DNA from: an uncultured Pelagibacteraceae bacterium
Lineage (GTDB): Bacteria; Pseudomonadota; Alphaproteobacteria; Pelagibacterales; Pelagibacteraceae
Length of the DNA stretch: 64,000 bases
Direction: 5' to 3'
Assembly: GCA_902590915.1 (NCBI GenBank)
Contig: CACIYQ010000002.1
Coordinates: 62,001-126,000 of the forward strand
A program made the translations under genes and the position numbers. Numbering within the stretch: the first letter of the stretch is position 1; each line of letters begins with the position of its first letter. A model generated the notes under the pieces. That model saw only the letters and a program-made list of their open reading frames with translations, searched no databases and was not told where the DNA came from. Positions 14,325-34,857 of this stretch are shown here, one piece after another.

Positions 14325-16136
14325 ATGAAAAATAAATATTATCATATATTTTTTTTGTTTTTAACTATTTTAATCAACCCTAAAGTTTCGCACGCTGTTG
14401 ATTTATCATCAAGTACTCCTTCAGATAATGCAACACAGATTGCAGTGAATACTGGAATAGATCTCGTGTGGCTAGCATCAGGGTCTGTATCAGCAAATAA
14501 TGGAAATGTAATTTTAAAAAAAACATCAGATGACAGTACTGTTGAAACTTTTTCAACTAATGGAATGTTTCTAGCTATGAGTTTGTCCTCTCCAGCAACA
14601 GTTACAGCCACATTTGCTTTATCATCAAATTTAGATGAGGATACTGAATATTATATCCTAGTAGATAGTGCAGCATTTAATAATTTTGATGGTATTTCAA
14701 GTAAAACAGCATTAAATTTTAAAACAGTAGATAATAACAATCCTACTTTAACATCTTCTTCGCCATCTGATGACTCAGCTAATTTTAATATATCCTCAAA
14801 TATAGTACTCACATTTAATGAAGCTGTAGATGTTGAGAGTGGAAATATTGATATTATCAATACCTCAACTGGGGAGGCTATAGAAATTGATGTTACTGGA
14901 ACTTTATTATCAGGAAGTGGGACGACTGAAATAACTATTAATCCATCATCCGACTTAGATCATGAAACATCATATCATATTAAAATTGACTCAACGGCAT
15001 TTGATGATGTTGCAGGAAATTCTTATGCAGGTATTTCAACAACTACTGCGTTAAATTTTTCTACAAAACCTGAAGAAGTTTTTAGCAACACTACTGTGAA
15101 AACCTTAACAAAAAATCAATCTACAGCATCTGTAAATTCTTTAAATCAGTCACTGAATAGAATTGCAGGTAGGATGAACTATATAAGATCTGGTAATAAT
15201 AATTCTTCAAATCAAAATATTAGATTAGCGATCAATTTTGACAATCCGCTAGTTACCGAAGTGTTAAATAAACTGTCAGCAAAACTACTAAACAAGGAAA
15301 AAAAGACTGAAAAATTGGGAGTATGGAGTGAGGGAAATATTTCATTTGGTAGAATAGGGCAACAAGATGGAAATTTAGGCCAAGATATTCATAGTGATGG
15401 AATTATTTTTGGTATTGATAAAAGAGTAAATGATAAAAAGACCATTGGATTTGCAGTCAGTAAATCATGGCAAGAAACTGAGGTAGGCAGTAATGAAGCA
15501 AATATGGATGCTGCTGCATTCAGCATTATGAATTACACAAGTTTTAAAATTGAGGATAAAAGATTTTTTGAAATTGTCGCTGGAATTGGAGAAATGGATA
15601 TTAATTTAAGTAGAGATGTTACAAGTGGAAAAAATATTGGTAAAAGAAAAGGGAATCAACTTTTTGGAAGCTTTACTTATTTGTTAGAACCTGATGTTGA
15701 AATTGTGGGTAGAAATTTAAATTATTATACTAGACTTGATTTAGGCTTTACTCAGTTGAAAGCCTATACAGAAACAGGCGACGGTACGGCGGTGAGCTAT
15801 AAAAAACAAAACGTCAAAAGCGCATCACTATCTGCAGGTTTTAATTTAAGTAAAATTATAGAGACCAAAAAAGCTATTTTGGAGCCATCGTTAAAATTTG
15901 AACTTGGAAAAGACAAGACAATTAATTCCGTTTCAGAAGCTTATTATATTAATAATCCATCTGAAATTTACAGTAATGCTTTAGGAGATCAAAATTCAGA
16001 ACATCTATTATTTAATTTAGGTGTAGGAGCAAAATTTAAAAATGAATTAACTATAAATACATCATATGAGCATTACAGAAGTACTGATGATGCTTTTAAT
16101 AATAACTTTTCTATTTATTTTAGAAAACCTTTGTAA
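14325..16136 (+). CDS. Surface protein: two Ig-like (Big_5) domains plus C-terminal beta-barrel
   Basis: A signal peptide (about 1-25, ending SHA) is followed by two tandem SbsA/Big_5-type Ig-like domains (about 26-132 and 138-248). Both begin with an S-x-P-S-D/DxA pattern and close with TEYYILVDS- or TSYHIKIDS-like strands. A linker (250-320) leads to an autotransporter-like 12-strand-type barrel (about 330-603) ending in an aromatic FSIYFRKPL terminus, as expected for BAM insertion. It is probably an outer-membrane protein displaying a short Ig stalk. It lies just upstream of a pilin gene within the pilus locus, so a role in adhesion is a reasonable inference but not shown. Confidence 0.72.
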   Translation: MKNKYYHIFFLFLTILINPKVSHAVDLSSSTPSDNATQIAVNTGIDLVWLASGSVSANNGNVILKKTSDDSTVETFSTNGMFLAMSLSSPATVTATFALSSNLDEDTEYYILVDSAAFNNFDGISSKTALNFKTVDNNNPTLTSSSPSDDSANFNISSNIVLTFNEAVDVESGNIDIINTSTGEAIEIDVTGTLLSGSGTTEITINPSSDLDHETSYHIKIDSTAFDDVAGNSYAGISTTTALNFSTKPEEVFSNTTVKTLTKNQSTASVNSLNQSLNRIAGRMNYIRSGNNNSSNQNIRLAINFDNPLVTEVLNKLSAKLLNKEKKTEKLGVWSEGNISFGRIGQQDGNLGQDIHSDGIIFGIDKRVNDKKTIGFAVSKSWQETEVGSNEANMDAAAFSIMNYTSFKIEDKRFFEIVAGIGEMDINLSRDVTSGKNIGKRKGNQLFGSFTYLLEPDVEIVGRNLNYYTRLDLGFTQLKAYTETGDGTAVSYKKQNVKSASLSAGFNLSKIIETKKAILEPSLKFELGKDKTINSVSEAYYINNPSEIYSNALGDQNSEHLLFNLGVGAKFKNELTINTSYEHYRSTDDAFNNNFSIYFRKPL

Positions 16137-16685: not shown

Positions 16686-19376
16686 ATGAAAGTAAAAAAA
16701 TTCATACTAATCAAACTTTTTTTTATTTTTATTATTTTAATAAACTCAAATGTCGCTAAAGCTGGAGATTGTGAAACAACAATTTCATCTGCCACAACAT
16801 CTCAATTAACCTGTGCTGATGATGACAGTCTCACGTTTACCTCTGCTGGATCCATTTCATATAATAATCATAAAACTATTGATCTTGAAGATGAAAAAGG
16901 AGTACAGATAACCAACAACGGAACAATTGAAACGGCCAATAATTCTAATAAGCAAAAACCAATACATGCTCAGTCTTCACTTGACTTTACAATAACAAAT
17001 AGTGGAACTATCAATTCAGACAATAATGAAGGAATTTATTTAGATTATGCAGAAAATGTAACAATCACTAACAATACAGGTGCCACTATTAGCGCTGAAG
17101 GAGCAAATGCGATTGAGGGTAAAAATATTGGTTGGTGTGATAAGGCTGGAAATAACGATAATTGTCAATCTAGTTTATCATCTTCGGGTTCTACTGGAGT
17201 TGGTCTAACATTGCATAATCATGGGATGATTAGTTCAACAAATGGAACGGTTTGGTTTGGCTCTGGGAGTGGGGGATCACCACGAAGTCGAGGTAATAAA
17301 ATTTATAATTATGATGGAGGAACAATTAAATCTACTTCAGGTAATTCACCAATTGTCGGAAAATTTTTTACAGATAGTGAAATTATAAATTATGAGGGAG
17401 CAACAATTGAAAGTGCAAGTAGATTTGGTATAGACACGGAATATGGATCAAATATTACCATTGATAATCGTGGGACAATAACTTCAGATAGAAATAGTTT
17501 TTATTGTAGAGAGTGCTCTGGAGTTACATTTACAAATTCAGGAACGATTAGCTCAACAAATACAGGCACTAATTCAGGCACAGTTCTTATTGATAGACAA
17601 GAAGACAGTGATGCTGCTCATACCATCACTAATAGTGGCACTATTGAGTCAGCATATGGAGCAGCAATACAGTTATCTAGAAACACGGGTGGAACCACCA
17701 TCAACAATACTGGAACATTAACATCATCAACAAGTGTTATAGGAGCTGGTAGAACAAAGAACCTTACTATAAATAATCATGGTACGATTACATCAACAGG
17801 TGAAGATAATACGACTTCCTTTGGAATTGGGTTTGGTAACGACTCAACTTCTGTAGAAGCTGGTGAAAATGTAGTTTTAAATAATTTTGGAACCATCAGT
17901 GCAATTAATGGTGATGCAGATGCAATTAAAGTTGGAGATTATCATGACAATAAAAACTTTAATGGTTTAACAATTAATAATTCGGGAACTATTTCGGGAG
18001 GTGACAATTCTATTGTCATGGCAAACTCAAATAACACAGGATTAGAAATAGTTACAAAAGGTGATGGTACTTATGTTGGTGAAATTGAATTAAATAGCAC
18101 CTCCACCACAATGACATTAGATTGTAGTATTTCAAAAGATCAAGATATTGAATTACATGGAAAAACTAACATCACAATAACAAATAATTTATGTGGAAAT
18201 GACACTTACGTAATTTTAGATTCAAATAAAAATAAAGACACAGATAATTTAGAAGCTAATGGTTATCTGAGAATTTATGGAGAAGAATTAGATGTTGTTA
18301 GTAATAACAAAAAATATAGAACTGAAATATTTAGTAATAGTATTAAAAATTTGTTTAAATCTTTAAGTGATATTAAAGAAAGATCAACATTTTATACTCA
18401 ATCTAAAAGAAACAATATTTATGAAAACTCTATTAAGGGTGTTTCAGGATATTTTTTAAAAAATGATTATACGGAAGAAAAGAAAAGAACTTTTTTAACT
18501 TATTTTGAGCAAAACGCTAATTTTAATAGCAAAGAAAAAAGTAAAAGTGAAAACTTAGCTTTTGGTTATGATATAAAAACAAATACTGATAATCTTTCAA
18601 TAAAACCATTGTTTGGTATATCTAGCAATAAATTTACCGACATAGAAAATGAAACTGGGCAAATAAAAAGAAATAATTTCCTAGGTCAGTTTGTTGCATT
18701 AAATACAAATTATAAATTAACTAGAAAAATTCAAAAAAATAGTAATTTATCTTTAACAGTAATTGGAGAGTATGGCGCTCACAGACTACCAAAATATGTA
18801 TCAAATTTTACCCATGGAGATCTATCAGTCGATGAAGCAATAGACCAAGTTTTAGGCATTGGTTTCGATGTTGAGTATTCAATAAATAATGAAAATGGAT
18901 TTATTTTAAAACCTTATACTGGTTTAGCATTTAATAAAACTTTAAGTGGTAAAGTTAAAATGAATGATATTAATGCTGTAAGATTAAAAGAGGATATATC
19001 TCAAGATCATACAATGAATGGAGCTGTTATAAAAAAGATTGGGTTATCTTTAACTAAAAATACAGAAGATATTGGATTTAATTTAAATTTTGAACATAGC
19101 AAACAAGATAATGTTGTTAGTAATAATGTAAATTTTTCAATAAGTAAAAAACTTCAAAAAATTGCAAAAAAAAGAAAAGAAGAACAAAAATTAGATCCAG
19201 AGCTCGAGAAATTATTTAATCAACTACAAATTATAAGAGAGAATGAAAGACTTGCATTGATTGCAAACAAACTAAATAAAGAAAATCAAGTTATGAAAGA
19301 TTTAATTATTCAATTAATTAAAGAAAATCAAAAAATTAAAACTGAAAATAAGTTATTAATTAAAAATATAAATTAA
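16686..19376 (+). CDS. Autotransporter-like adhesin with beta-helix repeats, barrel and C-terminal coiled coil
   Basis: A signal peptide (about 1-27, ending AKA) is followed by about eleven degenerate repeats of the type (I/L)(T/N)N(S/N/H)GTI(S/E/T)S (nt about 16905-18005), expected to form a right-handed beta-helix passenger. Residues about 600-820 look like an outer-membrane barrel, closing with NVNFSIS. Unusually, 76 further residues (821-896), rich in E, K, L and N with heptad-like spacing, form a predicted coiled coil after the barrel. Autotransporters normally end at the last barrel strand. The gene lies between two pilin genes. An adhesin role is inferred. Confidence 0.75.
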   Translation: MKVKKFILIKLFFIFIILINSNVAKAGDCETTISSATTSQLTCADDDSLTFTSAGSISYNNHKTIDLEDEKGVQITNNGTIETANNSNKQKPIHAQSSLDFTITNSGTINSDNNEGIYLDYAENVTITNNTGATISAEGANAIEGKNIGWCDKAGNNDNCQSSLSSSGSTGVGLTLHNHGMISSTNGTVWFGSGSGGSPRSRGNKIYNYDGGTIKSTSGNSPIVGKFFTDSEIINYEGATIESASRFGIDTEYGSNITIDNRGTITSDRNSFYCRECSGVTFTNSGTISSTNTGTNSGTVLIDRQEDSDAAHTITNSGTIESAYGAAIQLSRNTGGTTINNTGTLTSSTSVIGAGRTKNLTINNHGTITSTGEDNTTSFGIGFGNDSTSVEAGENVVLNNFGTISAINGDADAIKVGDYHDNKNFNGLTINNSGTISGGDNSIVMANSNNTGLEIVTKGDGTYVGEIELNSTSTTMTLDCSISKDQDIELHGKTNITITNNLCGNDTYVILDSNKNKDTDNLEANGYLRIYGEELDVVSNNKKYRTEIFSNSIKNLFKSLSDIKERSTFYTQSKRNNIYENSIKGVSGYFLKNDYTEEKKRTFLTYFEQNANFNSKEKSKSENLAFGYDIKTNTDNLSIKPLFGISSNKFTDIENETGQIKRNNFLGQFVALNTNYKLTRKIQKNSNLSLTVIGEYGAHRLPKYVSNFTHGDLSVDEAIDQVLGIGFDVEYSINNENGFILKPYTGLAFNKTLSGKVKMNDINAVRLKEDISQDHTMNGAVIKKIGLSLTKNTEDIGFNLNFEHSKQDNVVSNNVNFSISKKLQKIAKKRKEEQKLDPELEKLFNQLQIIRENERLALIANKLNKENQVMKDLIIQLIKENQKIKTENKLLIKNIN

Positions 19377-19628: not shown

Positions 19629-20132
19629 ATGAAAAACAAAGGCTTCACCCTAATAGAACTCTTAGTTGTTGTAGCTATCATCGGTATATTAGCAGCTGTT
19701 GGGGTAGTTGCTTATTCTGGCTATACTTCTAGTGCAAAAAGAAATGCAACACTTGCACAACATGAAAAAGCAGTAAAATTTATTCAAAATAATTTAGGTT
19801 TATGTGATGTTCAAGGAGGCGGGACTTTAAAATTAAGCTCTACAAGATCATTTAGCTGTGAAATGATTGCAAATAAAGGCAATATAAAAAATTTAAACAA
19901 TATTTTAATTGGACATTTTTTAGACTTAGGCTGGAAAAATCCTTATGGAGATCCAGATCCCCTAATTTATGCTGGAACTAATAGTTCACAAGATCGAGAT
20001 GGAAGAATGAGAATTGACGAAACAGAATGTCCTGGTGGTTATTCAAATGGAGCTCGAATTGCTTTGTGGATAAAAACGCATAAAGAATATTATCCAGTAT
20101 TAATTGAAAAAGATGGGTGGTGTAAAAATTAA
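19629..20132 (+). CDS. Type IV pilin (PilA/PilE-like)
   Basis: Prepilin with a short leader (MKNKG) and mature N-terminus FTLIELLVVVAIIGILAA, including E5. The first 40 mature residues match the pilins at 16176 and 37353, but the 167-residue protein has its own globular head with several cysteines. These include a pair near the C-terminus suitable for a D-loop. The shared K-NPY motif in the head supports common descent. It converges on the PilY1 gene, whose stop lies 8 bases away. I see no terminator between them. Confidence 0.92.
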   Translation: MKNKGFTLIELLVVVAIIGILAAVGVVAYSGYTSSAKRNATLAQHEKAVKFIQNNLGLCDVQGGGTLKLSSTRSFSCEMIANKGNIKNLNNILIGHFLDLGWKNPYGDPDPLIYAGTNSSQDRDGRMRIDETECPGGYSNGARIALWIKTHKEYYPVLIEKDGWCKN

Positions 20133-20139
20133 ATAATAT

Positions 20140-23100
20140 TTAGAAATTATGTCTCCAAGAATTTCGATAAGTATTTACCTGACCTGAACCAGCACTAATA
20201 CTTATTAAATCTTTCTTTTTACTATCTTCACATTCTTTCTTTTTCTTTTGGTCAGTGATTTTACTACAATCTACTTTACCTGCTATATTGGCAAAAAGAG
20301 TGTCTCCAAAGGTTACTATTTTAGATAATACACCTTGCCCAACCCAAGCACATTTATTATTTTTACCTAATGTTTGTCCAAGCTCAGATGAAGCATTTGT
20401 TCCACACTCATCATCAACACCGCAGATATAGGCATCTCCTAGGCTACATTTGTTCACAGATTTTGTTGGTTCATATACTGGAAAGTAAACTTGACCACGA
20501 TATACAGTTGGTTCAGCTGAAACTTTTGCAAAATCTTTTAAATTTATATACCAACCTGTATCTGCATTTTGAGGACAATTAGCTCCTGTTGTATCGTCTG
20601 TGGTATTTTTACATTCGGTAATCGTGTCAGCTTTTGCTGGCAATGCTACATCTTTATAGAATGGATAATCAACATCTTTAATTCCAAGCATGAAGTTTTG
20701 TACTCCAGAAGTAGTATCATTGATTCTTTCATAATCACCCGTTCCTGCGAATAACCACATGGAATTTGTTGTATCCCCTATAGTTGCATCCATTGCATGA
20801 TACATATATCTTCCATTTGCTTTTGTTGAACCAGCGTTAAATAATGTTGTGGTGTCATAAATTTTAATTGAATTTCCACTATTATCATCACTCATATTAG
20901 TTAAATTCACTTTGGTTATTTTTCCCTCTAAATCACTAACATAAGCTAAACCTCCAGAGTAATTTACTCCAGATGCTGTATCAGGTGTTACTAAGACTAT
21001 AGACGAGGGAACCGAATTTACAATATCGCTAGCGTCAGTATCCTCTATTTGTATTCTTTTATATAAACTTCCTGGGTTTGTTTCATCTTCTAAATTTATT
21101 AAAGTTAAGTTTGAACCAACGCCTTCGAATTGAGTTCCATATCCGCCTCCCATTGCAGCTACATACACATCATCGAGAATATTACTATCTCCAGCTCCAT
21201 TATTTGGAATTCTAAATATTCTTGGATCAGACCAAGTTTCACCTAACTCACTATAATCATATTCGGGATTTGTTTGTACTCCTGTAGCCTTTGATCCTGC
21301 TTTAATAAACACACCAAGCATTGAACTTGTGTTGGTATCTCCAGGATCTGCTGAGTAAGTCATATCAGTTCCAAAAGTGATTTCAGTGTCACCACTTGAA
21401 TTTGTCGACACACTAAAATTAGTATAATTATTGTCATTAAAAGTGACTAAGATATCACTTTTTTTAATTCCTTGGACTGGGAACGTCCATTTTTTGCCTT
21501 TGTAACATGATGTAGATTGGGATGAATTACATGTATTAGATACAGTATTATCATCATTATAATTATCTGTAACTTTTATAGACTCTCCAAATGAAGCAAG
21601 AGAGTAAGATTTGCCAATATAATCATAATTATAAATGACTTGATTATGATCAACTCTGTAGACTCTATGATTGATTTTATCATTAAAAATTGACCATAAG
21701 TGCAAAGGTTTATCAGGATTAGTTACATCTAACACACTCATTCCAGCTCCGCCTCTTCCATAAGGAACTAATAAAATTGTGTGCCATTTTTTAGCAGTAT
21801 CTAATGGAGATTTAAAATACATATCATGTGCAACAATAGAACCATCAACTCCAAAGATTGCGTTTGATCCTCCACCTTTTGCAAGATTTAAATTATTATT
21901 CATAACCAAAGGTAAGTAAGGTGCAACTAATGGTGGAACAAATCCCCATTTTTCTTCTCCACTTTCTGCATCAAATGCATGAAGAATTCCACTATTAGAA
22001 CCAGCATATATAACAGGTTTATCACCTCTCGCTTTTAAAGAGTTTTTCCATGCAACATATCCATTAACATTTCTAAAATAAGATTCTTGATTACTGTTTT
22101 GAAATTGTGTGTCTGCAGAGGGTGCACCTACCACAATCAACTGTGAATGGTATATATCACCTAGATAAATATTTTTTCCATCTTTTGTTCTCTTTTCAGT
22201 AAGATTACAATCTCCATCATAATCAAAATAATCAGCTCCTCTTAAGAAATTAATTAATCCTTTTAAATCATCATCTGTACCATCTAGAACCCCAGCAGAA
22301 TTTGCACATCTTCTATTTAGACTTGACCCACCTGGAGAGTCTGTTTTTCTGTGATAATCTTGAATATCATTTTCATATAATGACATGACATTTCCAATCT
22401 CTGTTGCATATGTATCTCTAAAGTTATTATAATCTGCTTTATAATCAGTGCCTGGAATTATACTCCAGAGTTTTCTAGAAGCTGGCGCAGGAACTTTATC
22501 TTGTGCCGACCAGTTATCAACGTGATTTTCATCAATACTTCCGTCTGGATTTATTTTTGTTCTTGTAAGTGTTCCAATCCATTCTTTATTTTGTTGGTAA
22601 TCAAATTGAGCTTGGTATAAAGATCCACCTTTTTCAATTGTTGCTGTAATTGCAGGAGCAGTAAACGAGAGTTTTTCAGCAATGATTTCTCCAATTTTAG
22701 CTTTAAGTTGGGCTGTTAATGCAGCTCCAGTTGTAGCTACAATTGACTTACCTGTGCCGCCTGCTTTTGCAACGTCTTGGAAATATCTGTATCCATTTGC
22801 ACTGATACCAGTACCAAATGCAACTGAGAAAGTTTTAATCTTATTATTATTGTAAAGATCTTTAACTATTTTTAAACCTCTAGTATGAGTATGACTGAAC
22901 CAATCTCCATCGCCAATTAAAATTACATAAGAATTTTGACAATCTAGATTTTTATCTATAGGTGAATAAGTAGTATTTTTATAATACCTCGATGCAATTC
23001 TCATTGCAGAGTCTAAGTGTGTACCTCCACCTGGATTAACTGTCCTTATCATTTTAGCAATTTGAGCAGCTCCACCTTTATAAATTGGCACTTTTAGACA

Positions 23101-24300
23101 ATTATAGGTGGTACAAGGGGTTGAATACCCTTGACCAGTTTTATGATTTCCGTGCCATCTGTTAAATCCAGATGCTCCTGCTGACCAATAAGCAAATCCA
23201 AAATCAACCCCAGACGTTAATGATGAGTCTTTTACTATAGCTTCTATAGCCTCATATGCGGCTTGCATTCTTGTTTTTGGAGCTCCACCAATAGACTTAA
23301 TCCACCCACCATTTTGATCTAAAGCATGCACTTGGCCATTATTTAAGTTTGCTGCAAGTATTCTATTATTGTTATCATCATATCCTAAACCCCATGGATA
23401 GTAAAAATACAAGTTGCTAGCAGATGATGCCGATCTGCTTCTTTTTCCTTTTGTTAATAAAGTACTATAACTACTTCCTGAGGGATTCATTTGAATTTTC
23501 TTCATCCTGCTATTGCTCCAAGAAAGTGTCCACATATTATTACCACCAACATGCTGTAATCCAACGTATGATCCTTCAGGATAATAAAAACTTCCACCAG
23601 ATGTTGCAGGACACCCTCCAGATTGATTTAATGGAAATCTGTAAATTCTGTTACTTCTGTAAGAAAAAATTGCTCCTGCATCACTTGCAGTCCCATAACT
23701 ATATCTAAGCTGAGAATTCACATTACAGTTCCTTATAGAACCAGAATTTACGTCAATAATTTTGAAACCAAAAGATCCTCCTACAAACAATTTATTTCCA
23801 TCCATTGTCATATTATAAGGGTAACCACCAAGGTTATATTTAACCATACATCTTCCATCACTAGCCCTTATACCGACAACTGCTCTTTCATAATATGCAG
23901 TTGTATAGTAAATGCCGTTATATGTTTCTCCACTGTATGAATAAGAAGTTCGACAATTACTATTACCCTCATATTTAGAATTTCCTTTGCCAGAAACTCC
24001 ATTATTTCCAAATCCACTATCTGTTGTAGCTGTATCGTACAAAAATTTTTTAACTCCATCTCTGTTATATTGAGAAACTAAAATATTTCCACTAGCATCT
24101 GCATCAGCGTCATAAGGATATCTCATACTCGCAGTTCCTCCGCTCATACGCCAGCCCATACTCCCAGATTTATCTAATAAAATTAATACATTTGCTGGTA
24201 CATCACCAATACCAGTACCTGGAGGCAAAGCTTTAGCAAATAAATTTTCCGTTGTTAAAAATAAAAATAAAAAACTAAAGATTAATTTTTTTAATTTCAT
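20140..24300 (-). CDS. pilY1: PilY1-type pilus tip protein with a split VWA domain
   Basis: A signal peptide (about 1-22) is followed by a VWA domain whose first strand and MIDAS DKSGSMG lie at residues 43-49. The rest of the VWA resumes near residue 343 (AYEAIEAI; T427 in GGGTHLD; IGDGDWF near 465). The roughly 280 residues between (nt about 23281-24129) look like a beta-propeller/NHL-type insert with repeated GxxxxVxD/G-type strands. The C-terminal half (from about 700) is the PilC/PilY propeller with the AGSNSGILHAFDA signature. PilY1 primes pilus assembly with the minor pilins and acts as adhesin or mechanosensor. At 1386 residues it is somewhat long for the family. It is the last gene of the fimT-pilVWX run. 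Confidence 0.88.
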   Translation of the reverse strand: MKLKKLIFSFLFLFLTTENLFAKALPPGTGIGDVPANVLILLDKSGSMGWRMSGGTASMRYPYDADADASGNILVSQYNRDGVKKFLYDTATTDSGFGNNGVSGKGNSKYEGNSNCRTSYSYSGETYNGIYYTTAYYERAVVGIRASDGRCMVKYNLGGYPYNMTMDGNKLFVGGSFGFKIIDVNSGSIRNCNVNSQLRYSYGTASDAGAIFSYRSNRIYRFPLNQSGGCPATSGGSFYYPEGSYVGLQHVGGNNMWTLSWSNSRMKKIQMNPSGSSYSTLLTKGKRSRSASSASNLYFYYPWGLGYDDNNNRILAANLNNGQVHALDQNGGWIKSIGGAPKTRMQAAYEAIEAIVKDSSLTSGVDFGFAYWSAGASGFNRWHGNHKTGQGYSTPCTTYNCLKVPIYKGGAAQIAKMIRTVNPGGGTHLDSAMRIASRYYKNTTYSPIDKNLDCQNSYVILIGDGDWFSHTHTRGLKIVKDLYNNNKIKTFSVAFGTGISANGYRYFQDVAKAGGTGKSIVATTGAALTAQLKAKIGEIIAEKLSFTAPAITATIEKGGSLYQAQFDYQQNKEWIGTLTRTKINPDGSIDENHVDNWSAQDKVPAPASRKLWSIIPGTDYKADYNNFRDTYATEIGNVMSLYENDIQDYHRKTDSPGGSSLNRRCANSAGVLDGTDDDLKGLINFLRGADYFDYDGDCNLTEKRTKDGKNIYLGDIYHSQLIVVGAPSADTQFQNSNQESYFRNVNGYVAWKNSLKARGDKPVIYAGSNSGILHAFDAESGEEKWGFVPPLVAPYLPLVMNNNLNLAKGGGSNAIFGVDGSIVAHDMYFKSPLDTAKKWHTILLVPYGRGGAGMSVLDVTNPDKPLHLWSIFNDKINHRVYRVDHNQVIYNYDYIGKSYSLASFGESIKVTDNYNDDNTVSNTCNSSQSTSCYKGKKWTFPVQGIKKSDILVTFNDNNYTNFSVSTNSSGDTEITFGTDMTYSADPGDTNTSSMLGVFIKAGSKATGVQTNPEYDYSELGETWSDPRIFRIPNNGAGDSNILDDVYVAAMGGGYGTQFEGVGSNLTLINLEDETNPGSLYKRIQIEDTDASDIVNSVPSSIVLVTPDTASGVNYSGGLAYVSDLEGKITKVNLTNMSDDNSGNSIKIYDTTTLFNAGSTKANGRYMYHAMDATIGDTTNSMWLFAGTGDYERINDTTSGVQNFMLGIKDVDYPFYKDVALPAKADTITECKNTTDDTTGANCPQNADTGWYINLKDFAKVSAEPTVYRGQVYFPVYEPTKSVNKCSLGDAYICGVDDECGTNASSELGQTLGKNNKCAWVGQGVLSKIVTFGDTLFANIAGKVDCSKITDQKKKKECEDSKKKDLISISAGSGQVNTYRNSWRHNF

Positions 24301-24836
24301 TGTGAATTTTTCAATTCTTCCATTTCTCTTTTAGCATAGAATTTTGATAATTTTTCATCTAGTTTAGGTGTTGAAATATAAATCTGTTCATCTTTAATTC
24401 CATCATCACCAGTTAATCTTTGATAAACAATAAATAAATTTGTTTTTTCAATTACCTCTACACCTTCATAAGAGTTTGGATTATTTCCAGTATCAAAATC
24501 CTTATAATTTTTTTTTACATAATTCATTAATGTCAATTTTTCTGTTACTAAATTTCGATCGTCATTTAAAGCAACAAAATTAACTGCAACCAATTCGTCA
24601 TTTAAAAATCTATATTCAATACCAACATCGTTTAATTTTTGGTTTGGGCAAACATCATTTGCTAAAACAGGATAAACATCTAATTCTGCATATTCCATTG
24701 GAAAGGGTCTTGTAGCAATTTCTCTTTTTTCAAAAATTTCTTTTTTTTCTCCAAATTCAGCTATTAGATCACAAGCTGAATATGCAGCACTGAATGAAAA
24801 AACTGTAATCAGAAAAGATTTTATTAATAATTTCAT
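24297..24836 (-). CDS. Secreted protein of unknown function linked to PilY1
   Basis: A 179-residue protein with a signal peptide (about 1-20, ending AYSA) and two cysteines in the N-terminal third. I recognise no domain. It overlaps the pilY1 start by four bases (ATGA), which implies translational coupling, and follows pilX after 58 bases. Position and export suggest a periplasmic or tip accessory factor for PilY1, possibly a chaperone or minor tip subunit. This is inference only. Confidence 0.65.
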   Translation of the reverse strand: MKLLIKSFLITVFSFSAAYSACDLIAEFGEKKEIFEKREIATRPFPMEYAELDVYPVLANDVCPNQKLNDVGIEYRFLNDELVAVNFVALNDDRNLVTEKLTLMNYVKKNYKDFDTGNNPNSYEGVEVIEKTNLFIVYQRLTGDDGIKDEQIYISTPKLDEKLSKFYAKREMEELKNSQ

Positions 24837-24894: not shown

Positions 24895-25620
24895 TTACTT
24901 AGGTAAAACAACTACACTTTCTAGTGCTACAACTATCCTTTTTTTAGACCCAGAATTAATTGAATGCTTTTTATTGTTCTTATTATAAGCATGTTCTTCA
25001 GCTTTTATTCCACATCCAAAAACCCTATAAGCCATACCATTTTGACCACTATTACCGGCTTGTTTTTTTACACTTGATCCTGTTCCTCTAAATGGGGCAT
25101 CCCCTATATTTGTAACAAAATATTCATAATAATAACCTTTGAGTCTTTCAGCCTCATGCTTCTCATTTTCTGATGCATTATTGTTAAAACTATCTCGAAT
25201 AACATCACCAAAATTCCAACTTTCACCAGTAACTACTTTAAGCTTATCTGGTTTATCTGGAAAACTGTTAAAGCAATACTCTGAAGTATCAAAGTAATAT
25301 TTATCAGAAGTTTTATAATTGATCTTAATCATTTGACCCTTAAAAACAGTATTCTGATTTGCTGGTAAATTTCTTTTGTTTAATTGTCTCTTATGATTAC
25401 CCGGGTCCCAAGGACCTAGAAATTGATTAAGTATATATTTTTCACCCTCTAATAAAGCGGTTTCTGCTACATAAAAAGTTTGTTGATACTCGTCACTCTT
25501 ATTATTACTTTGATGATCATTCGCAGACATTACAATAAGCGCTCCACCCATTAGAGACATTGCTAACATTAAAACTAATGAAAGGACTAAAGCAAAGCCT
25601 TGTTCATTTTTTTTAATCAT
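24895..25620 (-). CDS. pilX: Minor pilin PilX
   Basis: Prepilin-like N-terminus with cleavage after QG, followed by FALVLSLVLMLAMSLMGGAL. As in the PilX family, the usual Glu at mature position 5 is absent (Leu here). Residues QTFYVAETALLEGEKYI match the conserved PilX_N region (A-A-E-x-x-L pattern). The 241-residue length is typical. It overlaps pilW by four bases. With PilV, PilW, FimT and PilY1 it would form the tip/priming complex of the pilus. Confidence 0.88.
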   Translation of the reverse strand: MIKKNEQGFALVLSLVLMLAMSLMGGALIVMSANDHQSNNKSDEYQQTFYVAETALLEGEKYILNQFLGPWDPGNHKRQLNKRNLPANQNTVFKGQMIKINYKTSDKYYFDTSEYCFNSFPDKPDKLKVVTGESWNFGDVIRDSFNNNASENEKHEAERLKGYYYEYFVTNIGDAPFRGTGSSVKKQAGNSGQNGMAYRVFGCGIKAEEHAYNKNNKKHSINSGSKKRIVVALESVVVLPK

Positions 25621-26456
25621 GATCCAACATTCCTAGCGTGTGCCGTTACAACAATTGTATCTCTTAAAAATTTATCAGTTTTTTTTATATTTCTTGATGT
25701 GTCTGTCATTGCAAAAATTTCTCTTGCTTTAGAAGTTCTAAAAAAATCTTTGGTTGATCTTACTGTCAATGCAATATCAATAGTTTTTATTTTATACAAT
25801 TTATCTTTTGTTGCATTAGTTGGGGTAGGGGGTGGCTTGATTAATAATCCCTTGTCATCAATCGCATTAAACACTAGATCACTAATATGGTCTGTAACCA
25901 ATGATGGTCCATATGTTTTTGTGTTATTATCTGTATCACCATCATCCCATTTTTTATCGGTTGTATTCCACTTTACTTTTGATTTGTAAATTGCAAATGC
26001 ATCTATTGGAGGGTATTTGTTTCCAGGTAGAGGAGGTGCAGACTTGTCTGGAATTTTTGATCTTTTGCATTCATAAGTAATTTTATATCTTTCATATTCA
26101 TATTTGAGAGGATCACCTGTTGGTTTTCCTGCTAGTGTTCCATAAACAATTTCAATCTTATCACACGCTTGTGCAAAGTTTCTTGATTTAGTAATGATGA
26201 TAGGAGCATGTTCATTTGAAGTTGGAATATTATCATTATGATACTTGAATCCCGCAAGTCGAATATCTCTTAATAACATCCCTATAACATCCCTTCCAGC
26301 AGTTGAAATTTTTGCTCGATCAGCAACTTGTGAATAGGAGTTGTTAACAACAGTATAAGAAGTAAACATAGCTGCCATCATTACAACTGAAATTATAATT
26401 CCGATTAGAATTTCAATTAATGTTACCCCAGCAATTGAGCTAAATTTTTTTTTCAT
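25617..26456 (-). CDS. pilW: Minor pilin PilW
   Basis: Prepilin with leader ending in AG and a mature N-terminus VTLIEILIGIIISVVMMAAM that keeps E5. Next comes the PilW-typical segment in which a helix ends in GRDVIGMLLRDIRLAGF. The 279-residue length fits. The first mature residue is V rather than F, which is common in minor pilins. It abuts pilV (gap 0) and overlaps pilX by four bases, so the minor pilins form one translationally coupled operon. Confidence 0.9.
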   Translation of the reverse strand: MKKKFSSIAGVTLIEILIGIIISVVMMAAMFTSYTVVNNSYSQVADRAKISTAGRDVIGMLLRDIRLAGFKYHNDNIPTSNEHAPIIITKSRNFAQACDKIEIVYGTLAGKPTGDPLKYEYERYKITYECKRSKIPDKSAPPLPGNKYPPIDAFAIYKSKVKWNTTDKKWDDGDTDNNTKTYGPSLVTDHISDLVFNAIDDKGLLIKPPPTPTNATKDKLYKIKTIDIALTVRSTKDFFRTSKAREIFAMTDTSRNIKKTDKFLRDTIVVTAHARNVGS

Positions 26457-27062
26457 TTAATGAATTTGAAAATAAAGAAATTTTTTTTTGCTACCATCAT
26501 TCATATTCACTTCCATTTTTCCTAAGTACCATTTTTCATAAATTCCAGTACCTTGTTGGCCTGGTCCTTTGTAATTTTGAGTATTATTATAAGTACAATT
26601 ATTTCCCGATGCACTATTGTTACAAATATCAAATACTTTTAAAAATTTTATATCTTGTGATCCTTTACATTTAATTCTTCTTTTAGAAAATCTATCATCC
26701 CATTTTTTAAATTTATTCTGAGCAGTATTTGTAAATGAACCCGTTTGTGTGGTTCCTGAGGAGCAGCTACCCATTCTCCAAGATGATTTACTACCTGATA
26801 TTTTATTAGAAACTAAATAATCCATTAATTTTACATCTTTTTTTGGGGAAGTTGAGTTTTTTTCTGCAATTAGGTCTTCTGCCACCATACCGACTAGATA
26901 ATTAGATTTTGTTCTCTCGCCTGATGTATCGATCGATTGAACCGAATAGTTAACCATTTGAAATATAGCAACAAAACCAATCCCAATGATAGCCGTAGAA
27001 ACTAGCGCTTCTATTAATGTTATTCCTTTTTCGTGAATTCTTTTACCTAATTGTCCAATCAC
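26457..27062 (-). CDS. pilV: Minor pilin PilV
   Basis: Prepilin with the class III-like mature start ITLIEALVSTAIIGIGFVAI after a GQLGKRIHEKG leader. It keeps E5 and is the PilV/GspI type (ITLIEALV). I choose the GTG at 27062, because a GAGG ribosome-binding sequence sits five bases before it and it gives a normal 13-residue leader. A TTG at 27095 would add eleven residues and a 53-base overlap with fimT. With the GTG the overlap is 20 bases. The head has several cysteines. Confidence 0.85.
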   Translation of the reverse strand: MIGQLGKRIHEKGITLIEALVSTAIIGIGFVAIFQMVNYSVQSIDTSGERTKSNYLVGMVAEDLIAEKNSTSPKKDVKLMDYLVSNKISGSKSSWRMGSCSSGTTQTGSFTNTAQNKFKKWDDRFSKRRIKCKGSQDIKFLKVFDICNNSASGNNCTYNNTQNYKGPGQQGTGIYEKWYLGKMEVNMNDGSKKKFLYFQIH

Positions 27063-27660
27063 TTTTACCTCGCTTATATTTAGTAATTGTACCAAATCTT
27101 GACCAGAGAACCAAGTAACTAGGTTTTACTAAAGTACCGCTCACATCGCATGAGTTACTTTTGCCACAAACTACTACATAATCCTTTTGATCCTCACCAT
27201 TTATTTTAATTCTAAATTGATTTTGTAGTGATCCTGTTTGTAAGAATTTAGTACCATCTTTTGAAAAACATACCGCACCCTCTTTATCATTGTGTATTTG
27301 AGTATCAATTACAATTTCTTGAACTGTTTCATCCCAGTAACTATCATCATTACTACATTGAATACCCCCTGAATTAATTTTTGTTGAGTAAGTATCTTGA
27401 TAAATACCTTTAGTTTTAATTGTAGTTGAATTACCTTTAGGAAGTATTTGAAACTGAACGTACTGAAAATTGCCTCTTTGTAGTTGAGTGTTAATATTTG
27501 TAAGCATTGACGCAATTTGTTCTGAGGCTTTTCTTACTTTTCTATCCTCACTCCATTCCATAAAGTTTGGGTAACCAACAGCAGAGACAATAGCTACTAT
27601 AGTAATTACAACTAGTAGTTCTAAAATCGTAAAACCTTTAATGTCCTGCTTTTGCTGCAC
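27043..27660 (-). CDS. fimT: Minor pilin FimT/GspH-type pseudopilin
   Basis: Prepilin leader MQQKQDIKG followed by FTILELLVVITIVAIVSAVG, with E5 retained, then a GspH/FimT-like stretch (WSEDRKVRKASEQIASML). In this family the protein is a minor pilin of the tip complex and in some bacteria binds DNA during uptake. Length is 205. Its ATG lies inside the end of pilT (23-base overlap), linking retraction ATPase and minor pilin genes in one operon. Confidence 0.85.
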   Translation of the reverse strand: MQQKQDIKGFTILELLVVITIVAIVSAVGYPNFMEWSEDRKVRKASEQIASMLTNINTQLQRGNFQYVQFQILPKGNSTTIKTKGIYQDTYSTKINSGGIQCSNDDSYWDETVQEIVIDTQIHNDKEGAVCFSKDGTKFLQTGSLQNQFRIKINGEDQKDYVVVCGKSNSCDVSGTLVKPSYLVLWSRFGTITKYKRGKSDWTIR

Positions 27661-28654
27661 CTGGATCTATCTTTCCTGACTTAACCAACTCTTCTAAAGA
27701 TTTATCCATTGTAATCATTCCATCCCTAACTGCAGTTTGCATGATACTTGGAATTTGGTGAATTTTAGCTTCACGGATTAAGTTTTGAATTGGTGGAGTA
27801 CATTTCATTATTTCAAATGCACCAACACGTCCTTGACCATCTTTTGTTTTTAATAATCTTTGCGTTACTACCATTTTTAAAGAAGTTGAAATTTGTGCAC
27901 GAATTTGTTCCTGTTGTTCAGGTGGGAACACGTCAATAATTCTATTAATTGTACTTGGTGCACCACTAGTGTGCAATGTTCCAAAAACTAAGTGACCTGT
28001 TTCAGCAGCTGTTAATGCTAAACTTATTGTTTCTAGGTCTCGCATCTCTCCAACTAAAATTACATCTGGATCTTCCCTCAATGCTGCTTTCAATGCCGCA
28101 GCAAAAGATTGAGTTTGTTTTCCAACTTCTCGATGAGAGACAATACTTTGGTTATCAGTATGAATAAACTCAACTGGATCTTCAACCGTGATTATATTTG
28201 AAGTTCTTGTTTTATTAATTTCATTTACAATCGCAGCAAGCGTTGTTGATTTTCCCGAACCTGTTGGACCGGTTACTAAAACTAAACCTTTATGAAAGTC
28301 GACAATATCATAAAGCGCTTGTGGTAAATTAAATTGATCCATATCAGGAATTTTACTTTCAACTCTTCTACACACACATGCCGGACCATTAATTGTTTTA
28401 TAAAAATTTGCTCTAAATCTCAGTCCACTTAAATTAACTGCTGTATCAAGTTCATGCGTCCTCTCAAATTTTTCTAACTCTTCTTCATTACAATTCATTG
28501 AAAGAAGATCTTTTAAATCTTGAGGGGTTACCATGACCTCATTAACTTTTATAATTTCGCCAGTAGCCCGATAAGCTAGAGGAGATCCAGCTCTAATATG
28601 AAAGTCTGATATTTTTTTATTATTTTTTGCTAGATCTTCTAATTTTTCAAACAT
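27638..28654 (-). CDS. pilT: Twitching motility (pilus retraction) ATPase PilT
   Basis: Hexameric secretion-type ATPase that powers pilus disassembly at the inner-membrane base. Walker A GPTGSGKS is at residues 129-136, followed by Asp-box VEDPVE, Walker B-like ILVGEMRD and the His-box LVFGTLHT. The conserved N-terminal (A/I)SDxHIxAG pattern is present. Length 338 is standard. No second retraction ATPase (PilU) is visible in the window. It heads the minus-strand run to pilY1 and is divergent from pilMN over 120 bases. Confidence 0.95.
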   Translation of the reverse strand: MFEKLEDLAKNNKKISDFHIRAGSPLAYRATGEIIKVNEVMVTPQDLKDLLSMNCNEEELEKFERTHELDTAVNLSGLRFRANFYKTINGPACVCRRVESKIPDMDQFNLPQALYDIVDFHKGLVLVTGPTGSGKSTTLAAIVNEINKTRTSNIITVEDPVEFIHTDNQSIVSHREVGKQTQSFAAALKAALREDPDVILVGEMRDLETISLALTAAETGHLVFGTLHTSGAPSTINRIIDVFPPEQQEQIRAQISTSLKMVVTQRLLKTKDGQGRVGAFEIMKCTPPIQNLIREAKIHQIPSIMQTAVRDGMITMDKSLEELVKSGKIDPGAAKAGH

Positions 28655-28774: not shown

Positions 28775-30484
28775 ATGAAAAATCCTTTTGCAAATTTATT
28801 CAAAAAGAAAAAACAAACTGATGCTCCAGTTCCTAAACCAAAGACGGAAAATAAAAAAGAGAGTTTCTTTAGTAAATTTTTAAAAAACAGATTAGGAAAA
28901 TCTACTGCTAAAGGAGAAGAAATTATTGGAGTAGAGTTAACACCAACAGAAATACGTTTGTCACAAGTTTCTAATAATAAATCTAATCAATGGGTACTTG
29001 ATAAATTTCACGTTCATAAGTTTGAGGGAATACCTAAAGGGGGTACAGTATTAGAAAATCCAGATAAAGTAGCCGATGAGTTAAAAATTGCTCTTCAAAA
29101 ATTAAAAATCAACACAACCAATGCTGCAATAGCAATTCCTGTTACTAGTGCAATTATAAGAGTTGTTACTGCACCGTTAATGACAGATGACGAGTTAAAA
29201 AAAGCAATTGATACAGATTCTTTATGGGAAAACCTGGTTCAATTGACTGATAATTTAAATGATTATTCTATTTTTCACCAAGTGATAAATAAAGACAAAA
29301 CTGGAAATACAATGGATATTTTATTTGTTGCGTCGAAACTTTCAGACATCAACAATTACACCGATATTATTAAAAAAGGTGGACTAAATGCTGTCATAAT
29401 CGATGTTAAATGTTTTGCACTTAAATCTGCTGTAGACCAAGTAAATCAAATTGCAGGTTCAATTGAAGAAAGCAATTTAACCGCAGTTTTAGAATTTGGA
29501 TTAGATGAAAACTACGTCATGATTTTATATGAAAATAATCCTATCATCACAGACATCTTTATAAGAGGACAAGATAGAAAAACATTGGCAGAAAGTAATA
29601 ACCAAGAAGAAATGGATGCCCTGGTGAGAAGGTATATGACACAGGTTAAACAAGCCATTCAAGATTTTGAGACAAAATATGAAAAAAGAATTAGAAATTT
29701 AAAAGTTACTTCTAACTTAGAAAATGTTGAAGATTATTTAGCAAGTTTTAGAAAAAATATGACAAATACCGGGTATCAACTTTTTGATCCTTTTGATGGA
29801 ATAAAAATTCCTGCACAGCTTGAAAATGAAACAACAATGCAAAATAGATCCTATTTTTCTACAGTGATGGGATTAGCTTTTAGAAAATTAGATGTATTTG
29901 GTTATTACAAGTTCGTGACCGCAGTTAAAAATATTAACTTACTTCCTAACAGAGATAATATGATTGCTCAAAAAAAAGCAAAAGCTGTATCTAGTTTTGC
30001 TTTTAAAGGAGTAGTAGGTATTGTAGCGATAATCTACATAACCTTGTTTGGATTTTCTTTCTGGCAAATTTCAGAATTAAATGAAAAAATTGTTGGTTAC
30101 GAAGAAGTGGTTCAATCACATGAGCTTAAAACTTTAGAAAAAAATAAATACGCAAAAGAAATTGGCATAATGTTAAAATCATTAAAATTAAGTCAATCAA
30201 TTAAATCCAATAAAACAATAAGTTTTAGGGTGCTTGCTCAAATTGCATCTTCTGTGCCAAAAAGAGTGAAGTTTAAATCGATTGAATATAATGGGGTTGA
30301 TCAAATAGTAATAGAAGGCTCAGCATTTAGTGATCAAGATATTCTAAAGTTAATCAGTAATTTAAATAATAAAAAACTAATTTCCCAAGCATCTTTAGCA
30401 AGTATGACCTTGCCTGAAGATCAGCAACTAGGGTCACAAAAAATGAAAGGCTTTAAAATAGCCTGTATTTTGGAGAGTGCTTAA
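28775..30484 (+). CDS. pilMN: PilM-PilN fusion, pilus alignment subcomplex protein
   Basis: Residues about 47-385 are an actin-like PilM domain (EEIIGVELTPTEIRL near the start, an ATPase-type fold, and TAVLEFG near 236-242). Residues about 386-569 are PilN: the INLLP motif at 387-391, one membrane helix (about 409-430), a short coiled coil, and a PilN periplasmic ferredoxin-like domain. In most type IVa systems PilM is a separate cytoplasmic protein that binds the INLLP tail of PilN. Here the two are joined in one uninterrupted frame. The N-terminal 45 residues are lysine-rich. The pilO ATG overlaps the stop (TAATG), followed by pilP, Q, B, C. Confidence 0.88.
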   Translation: MKNPFANLFKKKKQTDAPVPKPKTENKKESFFSKFLKNRLGKSTAKGEEIIGVELTPTEIRLSQVSNNKSNQWVLDKFHVHKFEGIPKGGTVLENPDKVADELKIALQKLKINTTNAAIAIPVTSAIIRVVTAPLMTDDELKKAIDTDSLWENLVQLTDNLNDYSIFHQVINKDKTGNTMDILFVASKLSDINNYTDIIKKGGLNAVIIDVKCFALKSAVDQVNQIAGSIEESNLTAVLEFGLDENYVMILYENNPIITDIFIRGQDRKTLAESNNQEEMDALVRRYMTQVKQAIQDFETKYEKRIRNLKVTSNLENVEDYLASFRKNMTNTGYQLFDPFDGIKIPAQLENETTMQNRSYFSTVMGLAFRKLDVFGYYKFVTAVKNINLLPNRDNMIAQKKAKAVSSFAFKGVVGIVAIIYITLFGFSFWQISELNEKIVGYEEVVQSHELKTLEKNKYAKEIGIMLKSLKLSQSIKSNKTISFRVLAQIASSVPKRVKFKSIEYNGVDQIVIEGSAFSDQDILKLISNLNNKKLISQASLASMTLPEDQQLGSQKMKGFKIACILESA

Positions 30485-31125
30485 TGGATCTTAAAAATAT
30501 AACAATGTCAGATTTAAAAGCCAAGTTTAGTGGTGCTGCTGATAAAAAAACACTTGTCAAATTTGGTATAGGGTTTGGTGCAATAATTATATTTTTAATA
30601 ATTTATTACGCTATCCTAAATCCAATGGTTAAAGAACGTAAAGTAAAGTACGAAGATAAGTTGTTAAAGGAAAATGAAATTTCTCAATTCGAAAACGAAA
30701 TAATTCAATTTAAAGCTAGAATAAAAAAATTAAAACCTGAATTTGAAGATAGCTCGACTTTATTTCACTCCAAGGCAGAAGTTGAAGATTTGTATCAAAG
30801 TTTAAGTAAACACGCAGGTGTAAATGGATTGGTCATTTCGAAAATTGAAAAGAAAAAACCAATTCCTGTTATGAAAGATGGTGTTGCCAATCAATCTGCA
30901 GAAAACCTTACTGCTGACATGGTCTCTTATTACAAAATTCCAGTAGACTATGAGATAAAAGGAAAGTTTCTAGGCTATATAAAGTTTAAAAGAGCAGTAT
31001 CTAAGCAAAAGAAAATGCTTAATTTTGACAAAGAGACTATAAGTGTAGTACAAAATGATTCAACTGGAGCGATAATTGCAAAGGGAGAATTAACAATTGT
31101 GGGATTACCAAATGAATTTTTTTAG
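30484..31125 (+). CDS. pilO: Type IV pilus inner-membrane protein PilO
   Basis: Bitopic protein of the PilM-N-O-P alignment complex linking the inner-membrane platform to the secretin. There is one helix (about 26-45), then a coiled coil (about 50-85) and an alpha/beta periplasmic domain (about 90-213). That domain has the YYKIPVDYEIKGKFLGYIKF segment typical of PilO. Length 213 is normal. It begins inside the stop of pilMN and overlaps pilP by 14 bases. Confidence 0.87.
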   Translation: MDLKNITMSDLKAKFSGAADKKTLVKFGIGFGAIIIFLIIYYAILNPMVKERKVKYEDKLLKENEISQFENEIIQFKARIKKLKPEFEDSSTLFHSKAEVEDLYQSLSKHAGVNGLVISKIEKKKPIPVMKDGVANQSAENLTADMVSYYKIPVDYEIKGKFLGYIKFKRAVSKQKKMLNFDKETISVVQNDSTGAIIAKGELTIVGLPNEFF

Positions 31126-31555
31126 AATTTTATTAGTTATAATGATGATGGTTGCGAACATTTCATTGGCAGATAATCATGTTAAAAATGAAGAGCTCTT
31201 AGAACAAGTTAAAGAAATTACCCAAGGACTTGCTGATGAAGATGAAGTTCCATTGAATGATCCTTTTGCTGGCAATGAAGGTACGAATTCTTTAGCCAGT
31301 ATCCCTGATGGTGAGCAAGAAGATGAAATGAGTTTATATAATTTTAAACTTGCTGGATTAATTTCAGGCAAAGACCATAGTTATATTTCGGTAGTAAGTT
31401 CAGCGGGTGAGGCAATCACTCTAACATTAGGACAATTTTTAGGTAAAAATAAATTTATAGATTTAAGACTTACAGAGGCTATCTTTAAAAAAGAAGATGG
31501 TAAATATTTAATAATCGATTTTAATAATCAAATAAGAGAGGCTGATGAATATTAA
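31112..31555 (+). CDS. pilP: Type IV pilus assembly protein PilP
   Basis: Periplasmic connector between PilN/PilO and the secretin PilQ. An N-terminal signal-like helix (about 1-20, ending SLA) is followed by an acidic disordered linker with a conserved DPF element and a small beta-domain (about 70-147) as in PilP. There is no cysteine anywhere, so unlike classical PilP it cannot be a lipoprotein. I choose ATG 31112 rather than the TTG at 31097, since it gives a proper signal sequence. It overlaps pilQ by 11 bases. Confidence 0.82.
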   Translation: MNFFRILLVIMMMVANISLADNHVKNEELLEQVKEITQGLADEDEVPLNDPFAGNEGTNSLASIPDGEQEDEMSLYNFKLAGLISGKDHSYISVVSSAGEAITLTLGQFLGKNKFIDLRLTEAIFKKEDGKYLIIDFNNQIREADEY

Positions 31556-33104
31556 AAATTTATTTAATTTATCAGTAATTGTAATCTTAGGTTTTGTTCT
31601 GAGTAGTTGTGCTAATTCACAGTTTGCAAAAAAATATAATAAACCCTTCAAACACAATACTCCATTAATAAAGAGTAATGATATTACCAACTCCGGAAAG
31701 TCTGAAATTGCAAAAACTTTAGGTATGGGTCCTAAGCCAGTTGAGGGGGATACCAGAAAATTAGGTAAAAGAAAAAAAATATCTTCAGAAGCTCAAAGAA
31801 ATTATTTAATTATCTCAGATAATTTTCCTCTTCTTAAACAAAGAGTTACTTTAAAATTTAAGAATTTAGATTTTAAAGAGACGATGCAGTTAATGGGCAA
31901 AATTGGAGAAATTAATGTATTAGTTGGTGACGAAGTTGCCGGAGTAATTTCAGCTGAGTTAGTTGATGTGCCTTGGGATAAGGCCTTTCAGGCTTTGTTA
32001 GATATGAAAAATTATGCATCGGATGTAGATGTTGCAAGTAATTTGATTAGAGTTCATTCTCCAGAAACTTTAACCTCTCAAGAAACTTATAAATCAGAAA
32101 GAGCGCAAGCAGTTAAGAAAAAAGTTGAACTTGAAGATAGTGTTGAGCCAATATTCTCAGAAATATTCAGACTATATTATATTTCTCCAGCACAAGCAAA
32201 ATCAACCATTGAAGAATTGTTTACATCACAATCAGGTGATAGTTCTTTCAACCCAATTCAAATTACAGAAGAAGTAACAACTAGATCAATAATTGTGAGA
32301 GGGAAAGAAAAAGATTTAGATGTAGTTGATAAAGTTATTAAAGAAATTGATATTAGAACTAAACAAGTCCTAATTGAAGCTTTCATCGTCGAAGCAAATT
32401 CAGACTTTGAAAGAGCTTTGGGATCGAGGTTAGGTGGATATTATTCTAATAAAGGACGAGTTGCAGGTGGTGTAGCTGGTACTAGTAGTGGAAGTGCTGT
32501 TGGAACTAGTTTAGATGAGGCAGCTGGACTGGGATCAGCGACAGATAGTATTGCAAACTTTCCAGTAACAGGTGCAACAAGTGGTATTGGATTATTAAGA
32601 AAAACAACTACAGGGGTTTTAAAGGCTGAAATAACTGCACTTGAAAGTATGGGTATGGGAAAAACTATTTCAAATCCAAAAGTTTTCACATTAGATAATC
32701 AGTTAGCAACAGTTACTCAAGGGGAAGAAATTCCTTATCAAACAACATCGGATGGAACTACTTCAACTTCATTTAAAGAAGCAGCTTTGAAATTAGAGGT
32801 GACGCCAAGTATTATAGGGGATGGAAATGTATTATTAACCATCAAAGTTAATAATGACACACCAAATAGAGCTGCAGCATCAGATGAGCCACCTATCAAT
32901 AAAATGGAAATTGTTACAAAATTATTAGTAGCCGACGGAGATATTGTTGTAATTGGTGGAATTAAGAAAAATGTTCAAACAAATAATAAAAGCCAATTAC
33001 CAGGTGTCGGAAATATGCCTGTGATCGGTAATCTCTTTAAAGGTAAGTCTAATTCTGATAATCTAGATGAATTATTGGTGTTTATTGCACCAAGAATTTT
33101 ATAA
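31545..33104 (+). CDS. pilQ: Type IV pilus secretin PilQ, predicted lipoprotein
   Basis: Outer-membrane secretin through which the pilus exits. The signal peptide ends in a lipobox-like VLSSC with C22, so the mature protein is probably lipid-anchored. The N-terminal STN-like domain (about 95-175) is followed by an N1-type domain (about 200-270, VTTRSIIVRG). The secretin domain (about 280-519) includes VLIEAFIVEAN, the gate region and the VPxxGNLF-like end motif (LPGVGNMPVIGNLFKG). At 519 residues it is shorter than classical PilQ and has no visible AMIN domains. Overlap of one base with pilB. Confidence 0.92.
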   Translation: MNIKNLFNLSVIVILGFVLSSCANSQFAKKYNKPFKHNTPLIKSNDITNSGKSEIAKTLGMGPKPVEGDTRKLGKRKKISSEAQRNYLIISDNFPLLKQRVTLKFKNLDFKETMQLMGKIGEINVLVGDEVAGVISAELVDVPWDKAFQALLDMKNYASDVDVASNLIRVHSPETLTSQETYKSERAQAVKKKVELEDSVEPIFSEIFRLYYISPAQAKSTIEELFTSQSGDSSFNPIQITEEVTTRSIIVRGKEKDLDVVDKVIKEIDIRTKQVLIEAFIVEANSDFERALGSRLGGYYSNKGRVAGGVAGTSSGSAVGTSLDEAAGLGSATDSIANFPVTGATSGIGLLRKTTTGVLKAEITALESMGMGKTISNPKVFTLDNQLATVTQGEEIPYQTTSDGTTSTSFKEAALKLEVTPSIIGDGNVLLTIKVNNDTPNRAAASDEPPINKMEIVTKLLVADGDIVVIGGIKKNVQTNNKSQLPGVGNMPVIGNLFKGKSNSDNLDELLVFIAPRIL

Positions 33105-34852: not shown

Positions 34853-34857
34853 TTTAA

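Follow-up and report, generated by a model that had tools for sequence, protein, structure and literature searches.

A type IVa pilus locus encoding PilY1

The window, by which we mean the whole 64,000-nucleotide stretch of DNA analysed here, comes from the marine SAR11 group (Pelagibacteraceae) and contains a complete type IVa pilus gene set (PilD, minor pilins, PilT, PilM-PilN, PilO, the secretin PilQ, PilB and PilC). An open reading frame on the minus strand, 20140-24300, encodes a PilY1 of 1386 residues, a putative type IVa pilus tip adhesin that was recognized from the reading frame, a profile match to structure 3hx6 and Pfam family PF05567. Directly upstream, on the same strand, lies a gene for a secreted protein of 179 residues (24297-24836), which has no Pfam match and is found by synteny at the same place in relatives. 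Further upstream on that strand lie PilX-, PilW-, PilV- and FimU-like minor pilin genes (24895-27660; N_methyl or PilX_N matches and conserved order) and the gene of a PilT-like retraction ATPase (27638-28654; PF00437, E 4.6e-49), designated PilT by its size and position. The relatives retain the order PilT, FimU, PilV, PilW, PilX, 179-residue secreted protein, PilY1, so that PilY1 is encoded together with type IVa minor pilins. On the plus strand, Pfam identified a PilM-PilN fusion, PilO, PilQ, PilB and PilC, with one further ORF among them (28775-36099), as well as the prepilin peptidase PilD (13188-13952; PF01478 and PF06750); a pilin gene occupies 19629-20132 (plus strand; N_methyl, E 2.8e-9). 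The fused PilM and PilN form a single protein of 569 residues (28775-30484).

Within PilY1, all of whose features lie on the minus strand, residues 1-23 (MKLKKLIFSFLFLFLTTENLFAK, 24232-24300) were judged by eye only to be a signal peptide. Residues from about 701 to 1386 (20143-22200) correspond to the C-terminal PilY1 beta-propeller: a profile of this part matched the Pseudomonas aeruginosa PilY1 propeller structure 3hx6 with an E-value of 6.4e-23. PF05567, the family of this propeller, scored 37.2 bits against a cut-off of 28.1 in the genome search and was also detected in 20 of 29 PilY1 homologues; a single-protein hmmscan of the window's PilY1 did not list it. The protein has a C-terminal propeller, a MIDAS-containing VWA domain and a minor pilin cluster in common with PilY1/PilC proteins that carry an N-terminal VWA domain, such as those of P. 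aeruginosa and Legionella and PilY1.3 of M. xanthus (PMC11891296, PMC13190605). An RGD tripeptide is present in the C-terminal propeller (KARGDKP, about residue 757); since it is absent from the homologue consensus, it probably arose by chance.

A VWA domain split at its MIDAS loop

Pfam gave only weak matches on the window's PilY1, to VWA_2 (residues 408-465) and NHL (residues 299-325). The first of the AlphaFold2 models covered residues 24-610 and was built from a narrow alignment of 22 sequences (21 homologues and the window's protein); its mean pLDDT was 78 and its pTM 0.62. The model runs from VWA strand b1 (residues 36-43) through a helical turn after the DKSGS motif (residues 43-47) into 23 strands arranged in six blades (residues 62-338), and then into helix a1 (residues 344-357) and the remaining VWA. 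Strand b1 and the MIDAS loop thus occupy residues 36-49 (24154-24195), the insert residues 53-339 (23284-24144) and the remaining VWA residues 340-545 (22666-23283). A preliminary description of 23281-24129, which is residues 58-340 of the reading frame, had proposed that the MIDAS motif is cut off from the rest of the VWA fold by about 280 residues. The separation was borne out, and its length in the AlphaFold2 model came to about 290 residues.

Since the matches listed for the whole 587-residue model were propellers, the VWA part was folded alone (residues 340-560). It adopted the order a1-b2-b3-a2-a3-b4-a4-b5-a5-b6-a6, lacking a first strand of its own, and matched VWA and integrin I domains with VIA-align Z-scores of 17.3 and below. 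In these alignments the known VWA structures join in just after the position of their DxSxS motif, as with integrin alpha M from residue 146. A MIDAS can be assembled across the split: D43, S45 and S47 are invariant in alignment A1, and T427 (23020-23022) and D464 (22909-22911) are invariant in the 29 homologues of alignment A4, as T88 and D125 of that alignment. The MIDAS is therefore complete by sequence, with a metal site predicted, and the domain combines a Rossmann-like fold with all MIDAS elements (DxSxS, T and D) while being discontinuous in sequence. An alternative arrangement, with an uninterrupted VWA from residue 343 onward that has its own first strand and follows a separate N-terminal domain (residues 43-339), would agree with the fact that Pfam VWA_2 scores only from residue 408 onward. 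However, the part folded alone starts with a1, the aligned structures begin after the DxSxS position, and the three MIDAS residues that it lacks come from the DxSxS at 43-47. As far as prediction goes, we rejected this arrangement as exceedingly improbable, and the interruption of the VWA suggested beforehand stands.

The insert is predicted to be an NHL-type propeller

The modelled insert is a six-bladed propeller with four-stranded blades, apart from blade 1, for which three strands were predicted, and the pLDDT of its strands (residues 62-338) lies mostly between 80 and 93. Foldseek and VIA-align placed it among NHL propellers. Its best structural match was the NHL domain of TRIM71 (Z 27.6, rmsd 2.2 A over 242 aligned residues), and Pizza6 designs and PknD were also among the matches. 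Independently of any model, a sequence profile of 28 inserts retrieved NHL chains with an E-value of 4.5e-20. Pfam NHL was detected in 16 of the 28 inserts at E-values up to 1 (best 1.6e-7) and reached 1.4e-11 in relatives of set A7; on the window's own insert it scored 19.9 bits, against a gathering score of 20. Confident model and profile match together identify the insert as a predicted NHL-type six-bladed propeller. The earlier suggestion of an NHL/SMP-30-type propeller was thus correct as to the propeller, and NHL fits better than SMP-30. Since this nested NHL propeller is accompanied by the C-terminal one resembling 3hx6, PilY1 has two propellers, which had also been anticipated. At a pTM of 0.62, the orientation of the NHL propeller on the VWA in the model is not reliable.

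Additional elements in the VWA domains of pilus adhesins have precedents. Acinetobacter ComC, like the SAR11 PilY1, carries a lineage-specific insertion in the VWA of a pilus tip adhesin, the so-called finger, which is required for adhesion, twitching and DNA uptake; it has a Tyr-rich motif and its genes are replaced as a cassette (PMC10374093). The SAR11 insert is likewise Tyr-rich (tyrosine makes up 8.4% of it and 4-5% elsewhere in PilY1) and exchanged, but the finger comprises 91 residues whereas the SAR11 insert has about 290 residues and is of NHL propeller type. PilB of Streptococcus sanguinis and RrgA of pneumococcus are also pilus adhesins with extra elements flanking the MIDAS of their VWA, although these are short arms in other types of pilus subunit rather than a folded propeller (PMC8179133); the VWA structure 7ba2 matched the SAR11 VWA with a VIA-align Z of 15.5. 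Further afield, ComZ of Thermus (cited in PMC8179133) is a type IV pilus subunit whose core domain has received a large beta domain; there the host is a pilin, not a VWA, and the inserted domain is a beta-solenoid, not a propeller. In integrin alpha subunits that contain an I domain (PMC12422189), VWA and propeller are likewise joined by insertion at an adhesion site, but the nesting is reversed, with the VWA inside the propeller, and we claim no homology of arrangement.

Distribution of PilY1 and of the insert

SAR11 cells are regarded as free-living, streamlined and non-attaching. Against this view, PilY1 was found in 80 of 247 Pelagibacterales genomes sampled, including 59 of the 149 nearly complete ones (about 40%). 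Sampling of the class Alphaproteobacteria yielded PilY1 in only three of 289 genomes, the window's own among them. The only other alphaproteobacterial PilY1s found belong to family f25, outside Pelagibacterales (L069, or G340:C31, and L124, or G471:C1). Both of these contigs begin just after the insert position, opening with FVDYIGRG, a stretch that may represent a last blade strand. An insert of 260-384 residues was present in all Pelagibacterales PilY1s, from two families of the order, whose MIDAS and a1 were both readable, and Pfam NHL was detected in six of seven of the more distant Pelagibacterales PilY1s.

PilY1s outside SAR11 were compared by sequence profiles only. In at least 12 of 45 other Pseudomonadota PilY1s, DxSxS and an a1-like NFANW..R.R motif are 140-297 residues apart, while some of the 45 have no insert there. 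Within their N-termini Pfam (E up to 0.01) detected neither NHL nor any other propeller besides PilY1's own; individual proteins matched PA14, lectin or carbohydrate-binding families. The PilY1/PilC family thus has many sampled members with a filled b1-a1 loop and, unlike SAR11, without a Pfam NHL signal in it. We rejected the idea that the insertion site is unique to SAR11, as other PilY1s hold unrelated inserts at the same loop; judging from sequence, the b1-a1 loop is probably a general PilY1 insertion site that has been filled by an NHL propeller in SAR11. Because the site is common to other PilY1s, the novelty lies in the NHL module: SAR11 is unusual in that an entire NHL propeller fills the site and undergoes recombination. 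The literature searched, which mostly excluded subscription journals, contained no report of an NHL propeller in PilY1, and the papers found did not describe a propeller within the VWA of PilY1 or PilC.

The insert is hypervariable and exchanged between lineages

The insert was the least identical region of PilY1 in 1448 of 1482 sequence pairs, in agreement with the expectation of a hypervariable insert in a conserved frame. In the bin of closest pairs, identity was about 82% in the insert and 95% in the C-terminal propeller, and pairs with 80-90% identity in the C-terminal propeller had a mean insert identity of 74%, compared with 89% for the VWA. Entropy increased from the blades next to the VWA (1 and 6) towards blades 3-5. 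This hypervariable and recombining core (residues 158-292, 23425-23829) was delimited from trees, AU tests, entropy and codon identity profiles.

Trees of blades 3-5 separated two classes of insert. Class A comprises the window, L044, L038, L041, L031 and L043, and class B comprises L032, L033, L040, L046, L034, L035, L036, L037, L042, L049 and L039; in the C-terminal tree, three frame clades each contain members of both classes. Neither the C-terminal part (p 1e-99) nor the VWA (p 6e-72) was compatible with class A as a single clade, and the insert rejected the window's frame clade (p 3e-4), these AU p-values being indicative because the classes were named after the trees had been seen. There is little doubt that insert and frame do not share one tree, with log-likelihood differences ranging from 167 to 1400. 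Since the insert classes cut across the lineages of the remaining protein, the propeller cassette recombines. The exchange can be read directly from pairs of sequences: the window and L044 are identical but for one codon over codons 95-338 and differ in the flanks, while the window and L032 are identical over codons 400-637 and share only 46-56% DNA identity in insert blades 3-4, the insert of this pair being nearly unalignable in places. Silent cassettes for gene conversion were considered and rejected, since a search of the window's own genome (1.04 Mb, 81% complete) with the insert profile gave a single match and no second copy of the insert.

In dN/dS the insert exceeds the frame several-fold; for L043 and L036, dN and dS were 0.198 and 0.66 in the insert and 0.002 and 0.31 in the frame. 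Its mean dN/dS is below 1, which leaves room for relaxed constraint together with recombination. Variability is spread over whole blades, at much the same level in top and bottom loops; we therefore rejected a single binding face marked by variability, and no one binding surface is indicated. These two observations, and the constant presence of a propeller at the MIDAS loop, would suit a propeller of structural function, a lid or spacer gating the MIDAS, with its variability reflecting weak constraint and ordinary SAR11 recombination. However, the cysteines of the insert are kept in most homologues, which argues that the fold is constrained, and the insert classes, which by dS predate the frame, have been retained in several lineages. 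We consider a lid or spacer unlikely.

Diversity at this locus extends beyond PilY1. Between some lineages (L035 and L036) the minor pilins diverge more than PilY1, with identities of 34-38% for FimU (lowest, 34%, in L035) and 55-62% for PilV, PilW and PilX, while PilT remains above 91%. The tip operon in its entirety is a hot spot of diversity, and with such minor pilin divergence diversification is not unique to the insert.

A candidate recognition module at the pilus tip

We favour the reading, at a probability of about 0.65, that the hypervariable NHL propeller, exchanged between lineages, is a swappable recognition module at the pilus tip that sets what the tip contacts. By homology, PilY1 would sit at the tip of a type IVa pilus that can be retracted. 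Its VWA and C-terminal propeller would make up a conserved frame, bound to the minor pilins and bearing load. With the VWA split by the NHL propeller at the b1-a1 (MIDAS) loop, the propeller is expected on the same face as the metal site, and MIDAS and propeller may be coupled under force. The propeller, chiefly its distal blades 3-5, would be the exchangeable part that chooses the contacts of the tip; selection would keep its alleles diverse, and homologous recombination in the conserved flanks would move them between lineages. A role of the propeller in recognition, in line with the ligand module first suggested, is made plausible by the ComC finger and by the MIDAS-flanking arms of PilB and RrgA (PMC10374093, PMC8179133). 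A tip module that diverges and recombines beyond the rest of the protein points to a strong interaction with particles, cells or phages.

More tentatively, the swappable propeller on the MIDAS of a force-bearing VWA may represent long-lived alleles that are traded between lineages while phages or ligand diversity impose balancing selection, in a manner resembling antigenic variation. If true, such a pilus-tip system would operate in one of the most abundant bacterial groups of the ocean. The recognition module may possibly be under phage pressure as well. Taken further, the pilus tip would be a phage receptor and allele exchange an escape from pelagiphages, with ligand choice secondary or absent. 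Two deep allele classes that are common to several lineages and recombine are what frequency-dependent selection predicts, and the cell-surface loci of SAR11 are hypervariable (HVR1-4; PMC2217521). Yet the literature search found no pelagiphage that uses a pilus, and a query with the window's VWA and insert found neither viral homologues nor a phage contig with the module. We regard a purely phage-driven origin as somewhat unlikely.

RNA binding is known for some NHL domains, and the net charge of the insert is slightly positive (+2.8 per 100 aa). Both would fit a tip module that binds DNA for natural transformation, as in other PilY1/ComC pili; Acinetobacter ComC is required for DNA uptake (PMC10374093). 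However, ComEC (PF03772), which was present in 10 of 14 control genomes, was absent from all 101 genomes searched (the window's and 100 relatives, 22 of them nearly complete). DNA uptake by the SAR11 pilus is therefore disfavoured and, in our view, very improbable. The insert offers a defined, expressible domain of 290 residues for finding out what SAR11 pili come into contact with.

Other PilY1 forms and neighbouring surface genes

A long form of PilY1 occurs in the same genus (L019, L021-L030), with 1530-1690 residues, an insert of 354-384 residues and a longer C-terminal half. Some SAR11 lineages have two or more PilY1 genes close together (L056, L057, L126, L052, L053), and among these we noted altered MIDAS-like motifs (DKSNSM, DKSQSM and DRTYSM) and inserts of about 350-380 residues. 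Beside the pilus genes of the window are encoded a surface protein that combines an autotransporter beta-domain with Ig-like domains (14325-16136) and a large repeat-rich secreted protein (16686-19376); two pilin genes are located between these or next to them. The arrangement resembles HVR1 of HTCC1062, which likewise contains autotransporters and pilins (PMC2217521).
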